Source of the DNA: Crambe crambe
Taxonomy: Eukaryota > Porifera > Demospongiae > Poecilosclerida > Crambeidae
Direction of reading: 5' to 3'
NCBI GenBank assembly: GCA_963924555.1
Contig: OZ004581.1
Span: 4,464,001-4,528,000, forward strand
Length of the DNA stretch: 64,000 nucleotides
This document shows, piece by piece, positions 45,019 to 58,090 of the stretch (the first letter of the stretch is position 1; the number at the start of each line of letters is the position of its first letter). The notes beneath the pieces were generated by a model that worked only from the letters and a program-made list of their open reading frames with translations, had not been told where the DNA came from and made no database searches. The position numbers and the translations under genes are program-made.

Positions 45019-46037
45019 TATGGGCATGTTTCATTTGTGAGGTCAAAGGTCAAATGAATGCATGTGTATTATTGCAGCGAAATTTTAGGGAATCTTGCAA
45101 AAATTGGTCTTCAGGCCTCGGACTACTACGCATGCGCACTGCTTGAATTTTTGAAATTGTGCTCAGATTTGTTCAGGACTTTAGAGAAATAAGCTTTGAT
45201 GAGACTTTCGAGGCTCAAAAGTTGAGCATGCGCGAGAATGCACACCCAGCATTTTGCAAGATTCCCCAAAACCTCTGTATCAGAGAGTGCGGTAGCACTC
45301 TCTATGTAGGGATGACTCGGACGGCCGCGCGCGCCGCCTATAGACTAATATTAAAGTGAAATTCTAGTTCCCCCACTTAGACCTAACAAAAGCTACTGTG
45401 AATGATTATCCAGCCTACTAGAGCCTACTACAATGTGCAGACCAAGTTTCAGGACCAGGGAGCTTACCGTTTCAGAAATACGGCAAACAGGTAAATCGCT
45501 GGATTCTTCTTCTTCTCTATTATTATTATTCTTCTTCTTCTTAGACAACCATATCTCTCGAACCACTCAAGCTACAACTATGATTTCTGGATAAATCCAC
45601 TCCAAATTCTACGAACTACGATCTTTTCTACTCGTTGATCCTCAAAAGAGTCGATGAAAAAGGAGACACTACAGACCACAGCACTCGACTAATTCAATTA
45701 GGAAGCCATCTTTTCTATAATACGCATGCGCATGTATTTGATATTAGAAATTATAATATTACTCAGCTGTCTCTAGCTAGCTAGCTAGCTAGTCTCTGGA
45801 TAATGATGATGATAGACTACTGTATCGATTCGGGGATTTAGATTCACCACGGTTGACTCATCTTCGACCTCCAAGTAGAACTCAACAATAACACAGCACC
45901 TTGACTCGTTGATAATGATTGGGCTGGTATGCTATTGGAGAACTATTGGAGAACTTCTTTCATCTGTCCCTGCATACACATAGAAGAATGAACTCTATAC
46001 ATAGCTAAAACCATAAAGAGAGGAAAAAAGACCAGGA
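45019..46037. repeat. Dispersed repeat related to 12985-13930
   Basis: Contains an isolated CAGAGAGTGCGGTAGCACTCTC (45282-45305) plus the AGTTTCAGGACCAGG to GAAGCCATC block at 45440-45710 shared with 13100-13760 and 51085-51260. No coding content. Confidence 0.5.
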
Positions 46038-51381: not shown

Positions 51382-51478
51382 TACAGTGGTTTTACTCAAT
51401 CTTGCAAAAAATTAAAATTGTTCGTAGACCGTCCTCGCGCATGCGCAAAAAGCTCTGCTTAGTTACATCATAGATATA

Positions 51479-51643
51479 CAGGGGTTTTCAGGTTGGTTGA
51501 CCAGTAGAATTTGCACATGTGCAAGATAAATTCAAGCGAGCACAATATACTGTCATATAAATGCAATGATCTTAAATTTTGCGAGCACGAATTTAATTCT
51601 GCACAGTCGGCAAATTTTGTGTCAACCAACCTGAAAACCCCTG
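51479..51643. mobile_element. TA-flanked miniature element 1
   Basis: CAGGGGTTTTCAGGTTGGTT at the left and AACCAACCTGAAAACCCCTG at the right, TA on both sides. 165 bp, no coding, Tc1/mariner-type. Confidence 0.85.
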
Positions 51644-51645
51644 TA

Positions 51646-51790
51646 CACTGATTTGCAGGTCGGTTGTCACAAAAAAAGGTCGTCAATTTGCACGCATGCG
51701 TATTGAATTCCATTGGTTTTGAATTGAGATGAACGCTCATGCGTGGAAATTGACGACCTTTTTTTGTGACAACCGACCTGCAAATCGGTG
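51646..51790. mobile_element. TA-flanked miniature element 2
   Basis: CACTGATTTGCAGGTCGGTT to AACCGACCTGCAAATCGGTG, a near-perfect palindrome of 145 bp. Shares the TA at 51644-51645 with element 1, so the two lie head to tail on a single TA. Confidence 0.85.
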
Positions 51791-52887
51791 TAGAGGTTTT
51801 ACGGGATTGGAAACGCCCAATGACTGCACAACCGTGGCGCGTTGACAGATGCGCACGCGCATGCAGCATTAATTATATTAATCGTTGTGAAAAAAGATCA
51901 ATATTCACTCCTTTCAAGGCAGTTAAAGTGATATTCTGCCCCTACAGCTCACAGAATAGTACAAGTAAGCTAAGGGGAAGGTATTGAAGAAGTGAAGAGT
52001 CAGAGAGTTGAAGTTGGAGAGTCTGAGGAAGGAAGTTATTAATTATTCATAACTTTTTTCCTTGTAATTATAACTATGAGTACCTAACATTGCTCATTAT
52101 ACATTAATTTGAAAGAAAGGCCAGAATGATTTTTGGTATTAAAATTAGACATAAATTCATTATTATTATAGCTAGATAATTTTGCCCCAAAGTTATCCGC
52201 CAGTTTCTGCTCAGTTCTCCCTCATCAACATTATTGCAATACTTCCAGCTTTTGGCTGTTGGGTTTTGACACCATCCACCTCAAGAATTCGGCTCAGTCA
52301 GCTGTCCTGTGGACCCTATGGATATTAGGGGGGAAATATAGTAAGCTTGCCATCTCCATAGGATGACTATTGTCGAATGCACCAATTCCATTTACTGTTC
52401 TATCCTTTCCCTGAAATAACTAATACAGTTTCAATATTGTTAATCTATTTCTTGGGAGAGGGATTACAGTTTTAACACCACTTGCAAATGCTAGAGACAA
52501 TATATGTCAGCTAATACAAAAACCAACATTACTATTCCATGTAGCTAAAGTTTACATGCCTTTTGATCAGAAAATGGGCAACAGCAATTGATTCCATCAA
52601 GCGTGAGAGGGATTACAGTCCCATTAACCACTACAGTAGGAATAAACTTGAAAATCTGAGCTGAAATTTATTTCATACAGTAAATCTATGCCCTAGTGTA
52701 TTATAGTATCATTGGCATAAGTCTTACCTCACGGATCTTGTCAGAACAGCAACTTTGACAAAAGTGCTATGTCATTCAGCTGTCAACGCGCCTAGCCGGG
52801 CCTCGGTTGTTAGTTGCTAACGAGAGCACGTGATCCGTTTCCAATCCCGTAAACCTCTTATATCTATGGTTACATCGAGGGTTCAGT

Positions 52888-53345
52888 TAATCTGGCGTAG
52901 CCAGCCCCGAGCGCCAAAGGCGCGAGGGTCTGGAGACACATAATACTTGGACTTGTTCATTTAGCAAGAAATCTGCTAAATGAATGAATATCATTATGTG
53001 ACGTATTCTGACGTTTAGTGACGCGAAATGACGTCACGCGCCACTGGATGACCTCATTTAAAATAGCCACATGCTCTGCAACAACTCTGAAAGATGCTGC
53101 CGACAGAACTGCTGTTAGATTCGGGTACCAATCCATAGGATAGCGGTTGAAGTTTGAGCAGTTGGATGCTTTTCTATCTAGGAGAGATGTTCCTGCGGTT
53201 CTGCCCACTGCGCGCGTAATGCGTCATCGTGACACATGAATAATTGGAAGCATCATCCGGCACTTCCTGCCCCGGAACAAGTCCAAGTATTATGTGTCAC
53301 CAGACCCTCGCGCCTTCGGCGCTCGGGGCTGGCTGCGCCAGATTA
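52888..53345. mobile_element. MULE-like miniature element, 9-bp duplication
   Basis: TAATCTGGCGTAGCCAGCCC at the left and GGGCTGGCTGCGCCAGATTA at the right, continuing to GGTCTGG and TAATACTTGGACTTGTT. Target duplication GGGTTCAGT at 52879-52887 and 53346-53354. 458 bp. It sits 13 bp upstream of the accessory gene's ATG. Confidence 0.85.
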
Positions 53346-53358
53346 GGGTTCAGTAACT

Positions 53359-55866
53359 ATGAATAACTCTACAGCACAACCAGTTGCTTCTAGACCAGGA
53401 AAAGTAGTTTTTCGACTTGTATCATCAGATCATGGTCCTGCACAACCTTTAGGAAGTCAATTAGTCCAACAGACTGTGAGAGCAAGAGATGTTCATGCTT
53501 CAATCATCAATAATGTGAGTTTTGTTGTTGTTTTGAGCTAGCCATAGCCTTGCTTGTGCACATAGCATAGTTTATGCAATTAGGTATCTACACTGAACTA
53601 TACACACTGGCTACTAATATCTTACAACTGTGGTTATTTTCATACTAATTTTTTTCAGCCATCAAGAGAAAGTGGCGATAAATATTATAAATATAAAGTG
53701 AAAATGTTTGTGCCTAAGCACAAAAAGCCCATTACAAGACAATTACACCACTTGGAAAATAAGTTTAGCTCTGTTGAAACTTTAAAAGAACAAATATTAG
53801 GCCACTTAAAATTAATTATTAGTTTCTCATCCCTGCCCGCATCAATTTTTACCTACCGCATCAGAAAAATGTGATGGCTCACCCGGTCTTTTTTGAACGG
53901 TTGTCAGCTGAGTGTGAAAAGGCAGCAAGATGGTGTTTGTTGTTGTGCAAATCAGGTCTAGCAGGGTGTTAAAGAACTGGTATGGCTGTTCTGTCTCTGA
54001 GCAAGGTAAAGTATATCTGGCTAAGCCATTCGCTCTGGATTGCTAGTAGCTACTAGGCCTAGTAGGGATGGGAGAGGAAGAGACTAGAAGGCTAACCACA
54101 ATCAGTACAGTATGGGGGCAGAAATTTAGCTAGCTATAACTCTCCTCAACAGTTTGGGGGGGGGGGGTGCCATCATTTGTTAGCTTGCTATTAGTATAGC
54201 CTATAGCTGAGATGCTGTGCTGATTATTGTGGTTTTAATTAGCCTTCTTGTGTTCATTAATTTTGTTCATTAATAATTAGTAACCCTGTTGGAACTGTTC
54301 ACACTCTATGCCTCTGGACAGCTTGATGGAACTTCATCTATCCCTGACGAATTGGTTTCTGCTATAATTAACTGTTTGATTGGTAAAAGTAAGCAAGAAA
54401 TGGTTCGTGTTAGTACCAAAGTGAAGGTTGGGGAAGCTGTATCGAGTTTAGGACAGTTTATTGAGTATTTGTATGGTAAAGATGATACTACTGAAGAACA
54501 TTGCCCCTCGAAAAAGCTTGCAGAAAAGAAAGGAAATGGAATGCCATTTACTCCCACAGCACAGTATGCAAGAAATGTTGATGTTGTGATTCAGTGTCAT
54601 GAATGTGAAAAGTGGAGGCTGCTATATGCAAAGAATGTAGTTACTCGCTGGGAGAAAACAAAGCTAGAAAAGATCCTAGAAGAAGTCCAATATTCCTGTG
54701 GTAGCAGTTTACAGGATATCGATGATGAGTCATCGATTCTGTGTCGAGTGTTCACTAGAACAAACCTGCTATGTTCGTCACCTATGGAAATTCCATATTA
54801 TGGAACTTACCATGAGCCTCTCTGCTTCTATTGTGGTTGCTCTGATGTGGCTGAGGATGATGATTTGCAAGACAAGTATCCAATTTGTAACAATTGTCTT
54901 CACAAGAAGCCTGCTGTATTAAAGCGTAAAAGGTAAGTCCCTTCTCAATCCAGTGGTGCCAAGAAGAGAAAGAAGTAACTGCTATTTTTTATTCATTCAT
55001 ATAACATTTATTTAATATTCAGTGTAATAATTTTGTGTGGCTAGCTGTAATTTGTACTGTTGACCTTGCTTCTTGAAGTTCTATGTCCTAAAATAAACAG
55101 GTTACATAATAAATAATAAGTACCTGCACACCGCATTAAAAACAGGATGTGGTAAGGATGAGAAACTAATAATTAATTTTAAGTGGCCTTAAAGGAACTA
55201 AAGGATGAATTTCCTGATGATCCCACTGTTGATGTTGGCTATTATGATGGTCGCCAATCATCAAAAATTTGGCTTGTGTCCAGTGAAGATTTGAATCACA
55301 TGTATTGAAGCTGTAAAAGTAATGAAGTGTCTCTGTGGGTGGAATATAGGAATGAAGAGGAGAGTGAAGAGGAAGATAATGAAATCTGTTCAGCTAGAAA
55401 GAAACAGAAGCAAACCACTAAACGGCAAAGTATAGAAGATAAGGTGGATTCTATTTATAAGGAACTTTTCAAAAAACATGGGGATTCTGGTGTGTACTCT
55501 TGTCCACAGCTAAGACTATGGGCAAGGATGATTCAGTGTGGAACTCATGAGGATTATGATGATCCACCCCGTGTACCACAGATAACTGGACTTATAAAAA
55601 AGCCAGTTAAGAACGAGTCACTATCTGAAGCACTTGCTGGAGCTGCAGTTGCTGTTGCTAAAGCATTTACTCCACAGCAGTCAACACCAGAACACACTCT
55701 TTCTAAGGGTTCATCAATATCTCCTGGTAAATCTGTTGAGCTAAGAATGAAAAATCTGGAACAGCTTAAATTTCTGCAACAACTTAGGGATGACTGCATT
55801 TTATCACAAGCAGAATTTGTTGAACAAAAGACAATTATATTGGAAGCACTAAGGAAACTAAATTAG
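53359..55866 (+). CDS. Transposon accessory protein (ubiquitin/PB1-like plus SHOCT-like)
   Basis: Exon 1 53359-53514 (52 codons), GTGAGT intron, exon 2 from 53659. The frame runs to 53799, is cut by the TTA-flanked insertion 53800-55188, and resumes at 55192 to TAG at 55864-55866, about 323 codons in all. One in-frame TGA (55306-55308) is present. Exon 2 plus the continuation (KMFVPKHKKPI, FSSVETLKEQIL, then VDVGYYDG and KIWLVSSEDLNHMY) has the spacing of a ubiquitin-like or PB1 fold. An acidic then basic KKQKQTTKR stretch follows, then QLRLWARMI and GTHEDYDDPPRVP, then a Gly/Ala/Ser linker, SPGKSVELRMKNLEQLKFLQ and a C-terminal SHOCT-like pair of helices (LRDDCILSQAEFVEQK). I recall proteins of this layout as lineage-expanded unknowns in cnidarians and sponges; function unknown. 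The position opposite the transposase inside shared terminal repeats suggests it is part of the transposon, not a host gene. Confidence 0.7.
53800..55188 (+). mobile_element. Inner transposon, 33-bp inverted ends, TTA duplication
   Basis: Ends GGCCACTTAAAATTAATTAT (left) and ATAATTAATTTTAAGTGGCC (right) match perfectly for about 33 bp. Flanked by TTA at 53797-53799 and 55189-55191, a duplication typical of PIF/Harbinger. 1389 bp. It lies in the accessory gene's coding sequence and its removal with one TTA leaves that frame intact. Confidence 0.85.
54281..54986 (+). CDS. Cys-rich zinc-binding-like protein of the inner transposon
   Basis: Open frame from an acceptor-like site (TTAATAATTAG, 54280) to TAA at 54934-54936, about 215 codons; no clear ATG start, so upstream exon(s) are likely. 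The N-terminal 70 residues are helical (DELVSAIINCLIGKSKQEMV). Residues about 95-215 carry paired cysteines: QCHECEKWRLLYAKN, YSCGSS, LLCSSP, CFYCGC, CNNCLHKK, ending KPAVLKRKR. The C..C..W start and four later Cys sites look like a zinc-binding module. After the stop the same frame continues to KKRKK and TAA at about 54978, so an in-frame nonsense change may have removed a basic tail. No DDE transposase domain is visible in this element, so its mobility enzyme is either this protein's family or supplied elsewhere. Confidence 0.55.
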
Positions 55867-55914
55867 CCACTAAGACTATTAGCTGTAGCTATTATGAGAG
55901 TATAATGTGTATTA

Positions 55915-56912
55915 TTATGATTCCTTGTATATTCCAATGCTGTTTACCCAAGCTTTGCAATCTTCACTTGTTATTGAAGAAAATGCTGACAGTGCCAATG
56001 TTTCAATATCATCAGTTACACTAAGTTCGACTTCCATAGCACGTAAAACACACTTAACTTTAGAAAAATTAATAAAAGTTCAATGGGGTTATAGTCAGGC
56101 GAATAAGGTGGAAGGAAGTGGACAAGTGATCCAATTTGTTTTATACACTGTACTGCTCCAGTGACATGGTATATTGAACAGTTGTCTAAAATTATGACAC
56201 TGCTAGGATTATCATCACTAAACGTCATGATGTGAGGTAGTAGATTGATGTTGATAAAATCAATAAAATCATCTCCTGTCACACCACCTCGAACTATCTT
56301 CACATCCAGAATACCCCAATTAGTCATCGCTACAATAGCAGAAATACGTTCACCTCTAAACAGAAGTTTGTTGCACCTTGCAGGCTTTCCTCTTAACCCA
56401 TACCCATATTTTCTAATAGCATCCCTGCGGTCGCAACCTGTTTCATCAATAAAGATAAGGTTATGCTGATTGTAGACTGACACATCACTAGTGAACAGAG
56501 CTCGTAATTCAAAATCTCTTTGTATGGCAATTAACTGTAGTTTCTTTCTGCTAAATTTGCTCCTTTTTAGAAGCTTACAAATACTTGACTCAGAGACATC
56601 CAAGTTCAGTTCTTGCTGAATTTCCCAAAGGTATGTGTCAGGCTTTTTAAGTACTAATTGCAGTACTGTGAGCTGTACTGGTTTTGAAAGCTTCACTGTC
56701 ACATTCGGAGCTGAGTACCTTTTTTTGCTGACTTCTCCAGTGGCATCAAATTTGGAGACAATCCTCTGGACAGTAGAGGTGTCTACACACAAATTAGCTG
56801 CTATTTTTTCAAGCTTCAACCCCTGTAATTTGCGCTGCCATACTATTCTCCAGCGTAAATCTTCAGGATATGCCGACTTCCTGTAAGGTTCACAAGAGAA
56901 TCTTTTAGCCAT
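55915..56912 (-). CDS. DD34E Tc1/IS630-type transposase, frameshifted near the end
   Basis: ATG at 56912. N-terminal helix-turn-helix region: SAYPEDLRWRIVWQ, LKLEKIAANLCVDTSTVQRI and a second, winged part to about residue 110. DDE catalytic domain: LIFIDETGCDRRD (first Asp), VIILDNCSIYHVTG (second Asp) and PPYSPDYNPIE (Glu), with 34 residues between the second Asp and Glu. Soon after the Glu the frame shifts by one base near 56070-56085. The family-like continuation FSKVKCVLRAMEVEL runs in the neighbouring frame to TAA at 55917-55915, giving about 332 residues. Cuts and pastes at TA. The same N-terminus is preserved in the deletion derivatives at 18686-18985 and 47135-47275. Confidence 0.88.
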
Positions 56913-57012
56913 TACGGAGCCCTCGATGTAACTAAGCAGAGCTTTTTGCGCATGCGCGAGGATGGTCTACGAACAATTTTAATTTTTTGCAAGATTGAGT
57001 AAAACCACTGTA

Positions 57013-58090
57013 AAATAACAGATAGTAAACACAATAGCAGCTGCTGCTTTGGCACATAAATTATAAAATCCATGCTAGCATGAATAATGAACAAGTCATT
57101 GCAACTCAGGAACTATGTATGGGAATGAGCCAATATTTTGCATATGGCAACTACTTGATAAGGTCTAAAAAGGTACATTTTGCTTTAGTTTATAGCTAGT
57201 ACAGAATGTGCAGGACACTAGATCCTATATGGATAAATTAAAAAGTAGAATGTGAATTGATAAAAACTAAATGTAATTTTTATGGCAATAAGTATAAGAA
57301 GCTGTATATCAAAAATCAGCCATTGATTCCAAGTGGTCATTGAGATGTAACGAAGTTTACCTTGAGAATGAAATCAGTCATAACATCAGTCATTTTGATT
57401 GGTTCTCCTTTATTTTTTGTGTATGTGGTACTATTCTGATACTTAATAACGTGGTGCAAGTTAGAAATTTCTATCATGAATAGTTTTTAAGTTAATTTTC
57501 CCTAGCAACCATGCGTGGGTGGAGTGTGCCTGCACCCTTAAAATCCAATGTGTGTAGCAGTTTACATAACACCTAATTAGAGGTTGGAGCTGACCAAACC
57601 ACAATGCTACTGCAGCCTAGGCTGCAGTTTAGTATACTCATTGTGCCAGACCCCCCCTTCCGTGTGCTGGTGATGCAATACATCCAGTGCTGTGGAAGTG
57701 GCGGGGATGGTTCACCAGACTAACCTGATTGTACATTATTAATTAAAACACTACAAACCACATAAGGCTTCATGTGATGTAGAAACTGGGACATGTTACT
57801 GTAGATTTCGGGATGGTTGTCCATAAGGAATGAGAAATAGGTAGTGGCTTACAAGGACCTAAGAAACCTGATCCTTTCATGTCCTATACAATCCATGCAG
57901 TTGTGTAAACCATAGAACAAAATGTATCCACCTATTCCCCAAACCTTCCTGACAACCAACCTGCAATGGATAGTATTTTAATGACGTTCTATTGAGCTAT
58001 AGCGCCACAAAATCACATATCAAATTAAACCTGACGTTTTGATGACATCACAACAGTGGGTCAGAAGCCAGATCCTTGTCAGCCCTGAGC
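57013..58090. other. Unassigned intergenic DNA
   Basis: Sequence flanking the two-gene transposon. No gene or clear repeat recognised. Confidence 0.4.

Follow-up and report, generated by a model that had tools for sequence, protein, structure and literature searches.

Tc1/mariner transposons are the standard one-protein transposons, on which gene-delivery tools such as Sleeping Beauty are based. The single gene is usual rather than absolute in this group (IS630-Tc1-mariner), since ciliate members carry extra genes, as reported for Sardine, Thon, Anchois and Tennessee (PMC3464196) and for Tec and TBE (PMC7325037); in a 2025 paper, accessory proteins are called 'surprising for Tc1/mariner elements' (PMC12242761). 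The subject of the present work is a degraded Tc1/IS630-type element at positions 51384-57010 of a stretch of 64,000 nucleotides (C1:4464001-4528000; hereafter, the window) from the 143-Mb genome of the sponge Crambe crambe, in which a minus-strand DD34E transposase is faced by a second gene, called here the accessory gene. The pairing, noticed in a first-pass annotation of this DNA, is real and wider than first described: the element belongs to a Tc1/IS630 lineage in which a convergent partner gene is conserved. Since the lineage is diverse and retains a second protein, it can be tested what such a protein contributes, be it to the assembly of the ends, entry into the nucleus, the choice of target or an escape from silencing.

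The nearest precedent is represented by the ciliate elements, which share with the sponge lineage a Tc1/mariner transposase accompanied by additional protein genes; compared by description only, their extra proteins are described as a tyrosine recombinase, a zinc-finger/kinase protein or hypothetical products without predicted domains (PMC3464196, PMC7325037, PMC12242761), and the accessory genes of TBE are reported to be under purifying selection (PMC12242761). The best functional analogue, if the sponge protein works in a comparable manner, would be found in PIF/Harbinger, where a Myb-like protein is reported to bind both the ends and the transposase and to assist import into the nucleus; the evolution of the two genes is congruent there, constraint being weaker on the Myb-like protein (PMC9179366). 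Two genes between the ends, congruent evolution and a less conserved second protein are thus shared with the sponge lineage; the accessory protein, unlike the Harbinger one, is without a Myb/SANT match in the Pfam listing for 14 accessory proteins, and no Harbinger-type transposase domain is among the Pfam matches of the scanned transposases, which match DDE_3 instead. PIF/Harbinger differs from the sponge lineage also in transposase superfamily and target site. The first-pass annotation took the system to be undescribed; no description of the accessory protein was found in the literature searched, and no two-gene Tc1 lineage of this make-up was met in the titles and abstract starts of the open-access literature (Repbase and most subscription journals lay outside the search), so that the novelty of the lineage is likely, though not established. 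Extra genes in ciliate Tc1/mariner elements, however, have been described in the sources cited above.

The principal features of the element in the window are the following.

51382-51469, plus strand: left terminal inverted repeat (TA at 51382-51383, element start at 51384; 88 nucleotides, 99% complementary to 56925-57012)
53359-53514, plus strand: putative exon 1 of the accessory gene (ATG at 53359, GTGAG donor at 53515; read by eye, no RNA evidence)
53659-53799, plus strand: first part of putative exon 2 of the accessory gene, with the conserved N-terminal domain; interrupted by a nested insert here, continuous in copy L010
55190-55866, plus strand: rest of exon 2 (end of the N-terminal domain, basic stretch, LRLWARM..H..PP block, SHOCT-like C-terminus, stop)
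56016-56912, minus strand: transposase (DDE_3 and HTH_23, DD34E), with the frame lost just past the third catalytic residue
56925-57012, minus strand: right terminal inverted repeat (element end at 57010, TA at 57011-57012)

The inverted ends with a TA on each side are as first annotated, the TA being included in the 88-nucleotide arms. The transposase ATG (56912, minus strand) lies directly at the inner edge of the right repeat; the accessory ATG (53359, plus strand) is separated from the left repeat by about 1.9 kb, this copy being enlarged by nested inserts, several of them between the left end and the accessory start. In the related copy L012 there are no inserts at this place and the start codon directly follows the repeat, which agrees with the earlier proposal that both genes start at the inner repeat edge once younger insertions are discounted; L010 is also free of inserts here, with a small deletion across the start, and in L009 (C3:4278492-4281942), a fuller copy of the window element, one insert starts within the first codons of the accessory gene. 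The assignment of exon 1 relies on the same start in L012 and on a short first open frame followed by a donor in several other families. The accessory gene would accordingly run from 53359 to 55866, with an inferred intron at 53515-53658 and an in-frame stop at 55306-55308. At the other side, some 150 bp separate the end of the open transposase frame (56016) from the accessory stop at 55866. The conserved C-terminus of the transposase, however, is encoded in a different frame, as far as a stop at 55915-55917, which leaves 48 bp between the stops of the two genes, close to the 50 bp originally given. Since the transposase frame is lost, and the accessory gene is interrupted by an insert and by the in-frame stop, the window copy is a dead relic with both genes broken, a circumstance absent from the first-pass annotation. 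The end sequence of this element occurs at 6 other places in the genome (5 copies).

The evidence for a lineage comes from the rest of the genome, the single one from which all counts reported here are taken. Searches with the accessory protein and with the transposase returned at least 122 and at least 142 matches, merged into 106 accessory and 123 transposase clusters, respectively, and pairing was scored within 3 kb. With this first accessory list 83 of the 123 transposase clusters were paired (77 convergent, 6 same-strand, 0 divergent), the chance expectation being 0.64 pairs; a second accessory query raised the accessory clusters to 124, and with both queries 91 transposase clusters have a convergent accessory partner, 6 a same-strand one and none a divergent one, while 26 are without a match. 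Three of these 26 were read, and all three hold an accessory remnant, clear in L068 (E 2e-35) and L077 (E 3e-14), weak in L074 (E 0.0012, C-terminus only). The accessory gene is therefore multi-copy and sits with the transposase, rather than being a single-copy host gene. Conversely, 23 of the 124 accessory clusters have no transposase assigned within 3 kb, transposase pieces being found beside some of them (L031, L037). Among the 24 pairs in which each gene is a single open reading frame (window copy included), the stop-to-stop frames are separated by -52 to 491 bp.

Outside the transposase list, 36 clusters picked by eye among the DDE_3 matches listed include 3 with a convergent accessory match, 2 with a same-strand one and 31 with none. 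One of these 31, L078, encodes a 339-residue Tc1-like transposase of another lineage with a DDE_3 match, and no accessory match is present in any frame of the 1.8 kb examined, including 564 bases beyond the transposase stop; its ends could not be delimited, the only pair being of 25 nucleotides at 76%. Because of L078, the accessory gene seems to mark one lineage rather than every Tc1-like element in the genome. Inverted or alternative layouts are found among the same-strand pairs, with the accessory gene first at C6:1727350-1728867 and C16:6168107-6169663, and with the transposase first at C13:4275982-4277268 and C13:4333973-4335296. A separate observation concerns C11, where 24 transposase clusters, of which 21 are on the minus strand, lie between 1.6 and 3.9 Mb, mostly at spacings of 45-120 kb; several have open frames of approximately 344 residues, some are accompanied by accessory pieces, and they may be a large amplified array or co-opted copies.

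Inverted pairs were found in 19 of 46 merged loci, and 16 elements were taken further (left out were C10:4574591, whose pairs are not of the TA type, and C12:978667 and C3:4299402, relatives of kept elements, the latter with an 18-nucleotide arm). In 15 of the 16 the ends enclose both genes, so that such ends are by no means always without the accessory frame, and 15 of the 16 are 1.9-2.5 kb long; by eye, 14 have a TA immediately beyond each terminus, and the start codons of both genes, where readable, are about 60-200 nucleotides from the element end. The lineage shares with Tc1/mariner the DDE_3 transposase, the helix-turn-helix regions, the DD34E signature, the inverted repeats and a size of about 2 kb, along with the TA read by eye at most ends, and is unlike it in having a second gene convergent with the transposase. 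A derivative at C9:2900440-2902481 (L033) has near-identical ends of about 82 nucleotides and an accessory gene without transposase; an integrase core fragment (Pfam rve; L033 2363-3010, minus strand) of retrotransposon-type look is placed between one end and the accessory gene.

The Tc1/IS630 assignment of the first-pass annotation is borne out by the protein: Pfam DDE_3 is above its cut-off in the window protein and in all five relatives scanned, and HTH_23 in 4 of the 6 lineage members scanned (the window protein among them); a second helix-turn-helix part is represented by weaker HTH_33 and HTH_Tnp_Tc3_2 matches in several members, and L074 is the member of these six for which the Pfam scan gave no helix-turn-helix match. 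The last two catalytic residues are spaced by 34 in the window protein, as in 15 of 24 transposases, the spacing being 35 in one and unreadable by pattern in 8. A single-sequence PDB search with the transposase of one family gave no match at E up to 0.1.

The accessory protein, in an alignment of 14 members, begins with a variable N-terminus, followed by a conserved domain of some 95 residues, then by a basic stretch and the LRLWARM..H..PP block, and ends in a C-terminus matching SHOCT. The block, already singled out as RLWARMI..GTH, is conserved family-wide, and 23 of the 24 accessory frames contain at least 3 consecutive basic residues (a count made without a control). The SHOCT-like C-terminus first read in the window copy is found by Pfam in its relatives: with E up to 10 a match is obtained for 10 of the 14 members, the best E being 1.6e-6, and among the 7 matching proteins of 10 scanned the curated cut-off is reached in L018 (27.1 bits against 27), the other 6 being below it. 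The likeness to SHOCT domain proteins (PF09851) is confined to the C-terminal 28 or so residues; for the remainder only weak Pfam and NCBIfam matches were obtained (E 0.0069 or worse). The N-terminal domain, which had been described as ubiquitin/PB1-like, is conserved across families and looks PB1-like by eye (pattern GY(F/Y)E...K.WL....DL..MY), but no search recognises PB1; the hhalign scores of the accessory profile against PB1 and against ubiquitin-like profiles fall within those of 200 shuffled-column controls, in a comparison of little power, as PB1 against ubiquitin was missed as well. Other candidates were set aside: PDB profile matches to ribonuclease 3 at the SHOCT end and to 8-oxoguanine DNA glycosylase at the LRLWARM block (E 0.18-0.29), an NCBIfam DNA-deoxyinosine glycosylase model (E 0.035, in 1 of 14 members), all of them weak and unused, and one weak match, DrmC (E 0.04), in a defence-system library. 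No accessory relative was confirmed in scans of viral contigs and prokaryote genomes.

The two genes descend together. For the 15 of the 24 single-frame pairs whose transposases are more than 12% apart, the distance matrices of the accessory protein and of the transposase are correlated (Mantel r 0.676, with 0 of 10,000 permutations as high), with a mean identity of 38% for the former and 49% for the latter, and of the three groups starred in the transposase tree two carry a star in the accessory tree too. The accessory frame is under constraint: the proportion of nonsynonymous differences (pN) is lower than that of synonymous ones (pS) in all 242 distant pairs compared, which derive from 23 sequences and are therefore not independent, and the median pN/pS is 0.54 for the accessory gene and 0.44 for the transposase, values not to be taken as rate ratios, since synonymous sites are near saturation.

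The ends themselves carry a candidate promoter motif, present as follows in the window copy.

51436-51447, plus strand: YGCGCAYGCGCR motif in the left repeat, exact match
56947-56958, minus strand: YGCGCAYGCGCR motif in the right repeat, exact match

The motif was counted in 13 of the 16 elements, one per close family, with a match defined as at least 10 of 12 positions of YGCGCAYGCGCR: it is found in 17 of 26 ends and at both ends of 8 elements, upstream of the start codons, and in none of 192 windows taken from the interior of these elements; its distance from the end is 36-57 nucleotides in 16 of the 17 cases and 20 in one. The sequence YGCGCAYGCGCR matches the NRF1 consensus, and its position before the start codons at both ends is fitting for the matched inward promoters suggested in the first-pass annotation; alternatively, proteins encoded by the element itself might bind there. 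In the C8/C21 family (L063, L068) both ends have TTCCATATATGGAA, which resembles a CArG box, and no GCGCATGCGC-like motif, a possible case of promoter-element swap between families. The window as a whole contains 21 YGCGCAYGCGCR sites with at most one mismatch on both strands, the element's own included, where 0.21 are expected from shuffles; extra sites at window positions 45127, 45223, 45721, 47219 and 59154 are perhaps ends of other elements.

As to what the second protein does, a reading that we favour slightly, from sequence comparison, is that these are Tc1/IS630 elements with two proteins, in which the accessory one would be a transposition helper comparable to the Myb-like protein of Harbinger. 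The accessory protein is probably a working partner of the transposase, because it has been kept with it through many diverged families of one genome. The two-component system proposed at the outset thus stands as far as both genes lie within 15 of the 16 delimited elements and diverge together, but its functional sense is something that we infer. In a working element, TA-flanked inverted ends enclose the DD34E transposase and the facing accessory gene; the inner part of each end would act as promoter, the matched ends driving both genes inward; the basic stretch would take the accessory protein into the nucleus, its N-terminal and SHOCT domains would mediate self-association, and accessory protein and transposase would act together on the ends, as the Myb-like protein does in PIF/Harbinger. 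Somewhat less likely than not is a stronger version, according to which the accessory protein would be an obligate subunit, the DD34E transposase being immobile without it and both being expressed from matched end promoters, in elements outside the ciliates. That the pairing arose by chance through a nested insertion, or is the artefact of one degraded locus, would suit the broken state of the window copy and its several nested inserts, but it has practically no probability left, given that this gene pair recurs, identically oriented, in diverged elements at other loci (83 paired clusters against 0.64 expected; 91 convergent and 0 divergent with both queries). It is also improbable that the accessory gene is a passenger, gained once, benefiting the host or hitch-hiking and kept by descent only: joint descent of the two genes would be expected for a passenger too, and one derivative retains the accessory gene with the transposase gone, but a passenger should be lost often, whereas constraint is seen across families and nearly all pairs have one orientation.

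The alternative closest to a helper is a regulator or silencing antagonist, which would sustain expression or limit the transposase and take no part in cut-and-paste. The same co-retention and constraint fit such a role, the basic stretch fits a nuclear protein, and Tc1/mariner elements typically encode the transposase alone (PMC12242761); nothing specific speaks against it, but a repressor might be lost more easily from successful copies, and no transposase-only copy of the lineage was met among the loci read; we consider this role rather unlikely. A helper is the most likely function, with the regulator or silencing antagonist second; the two are not separable by sequence. Several observations weigh against the helper and the lineage as described. 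The transposase has helix-turn-helix regions and a catalytic domain that suffice in ordinary Tc1 elements, and a helper is therefore not obviously needed; the accessory proteins of TBE, tested in E. coli by others, left DNA binding unchanged (PMC12242761). An accessory match is missing for 26 of the 123 transposase clusters, of which three were read. Both trees are poorly resolved, and the partner of C3_6305k differs between them; no PB1 or ubiquitin match to the accessory alignment exists in Pfam or PDB sequences, which leaves the PB1 fold unconfirmed; the YGCGCAYGCGCR-like motif is missing from 9 of the 26 ends and occurs in 14 of 428 windows of surrounding sequence. The use of a single genome belongs here as well, as does the lack of an empty site for the window copy: a joined-flank search returned the two flanks only separately, the right one being a high-copy repeat. 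The right flank from the outer TA onward (57011-57058) has at least 38 other exact copies of at least 48 nucleotides.

The inserts which enlarge the window copy are listed below.

51477-51796, plus strand: further nested foldback inserts beside the left repeat (inverted pairs I3 and I5), absent from L009
51792-52868, plus strand: nested insert at the accessory start, common to the C3 copies L009 and L013
52888-53345, plus strand: nested insert with 71-nucleotide arms, 96% complementary, absent from L009
53800-55188, plus strand: nested insert in the accessory gene, with 39-nucleotide arms and TTA at 53797-53799 and 55189-55191

Since the insert at 51792-52868 adjoins the same end in L009 and L013, the element was probably copied after gaining it. 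The insert at 53800-55188 is missing from L009, in which the flanking sides join with 3 nucleotides in common; the three-base TTA duplication around it suggests a PIF/Harbinger-type element. Within the insert lies an open frame (54289-54936) whose match to a CW zinc finger is sub-threshold.

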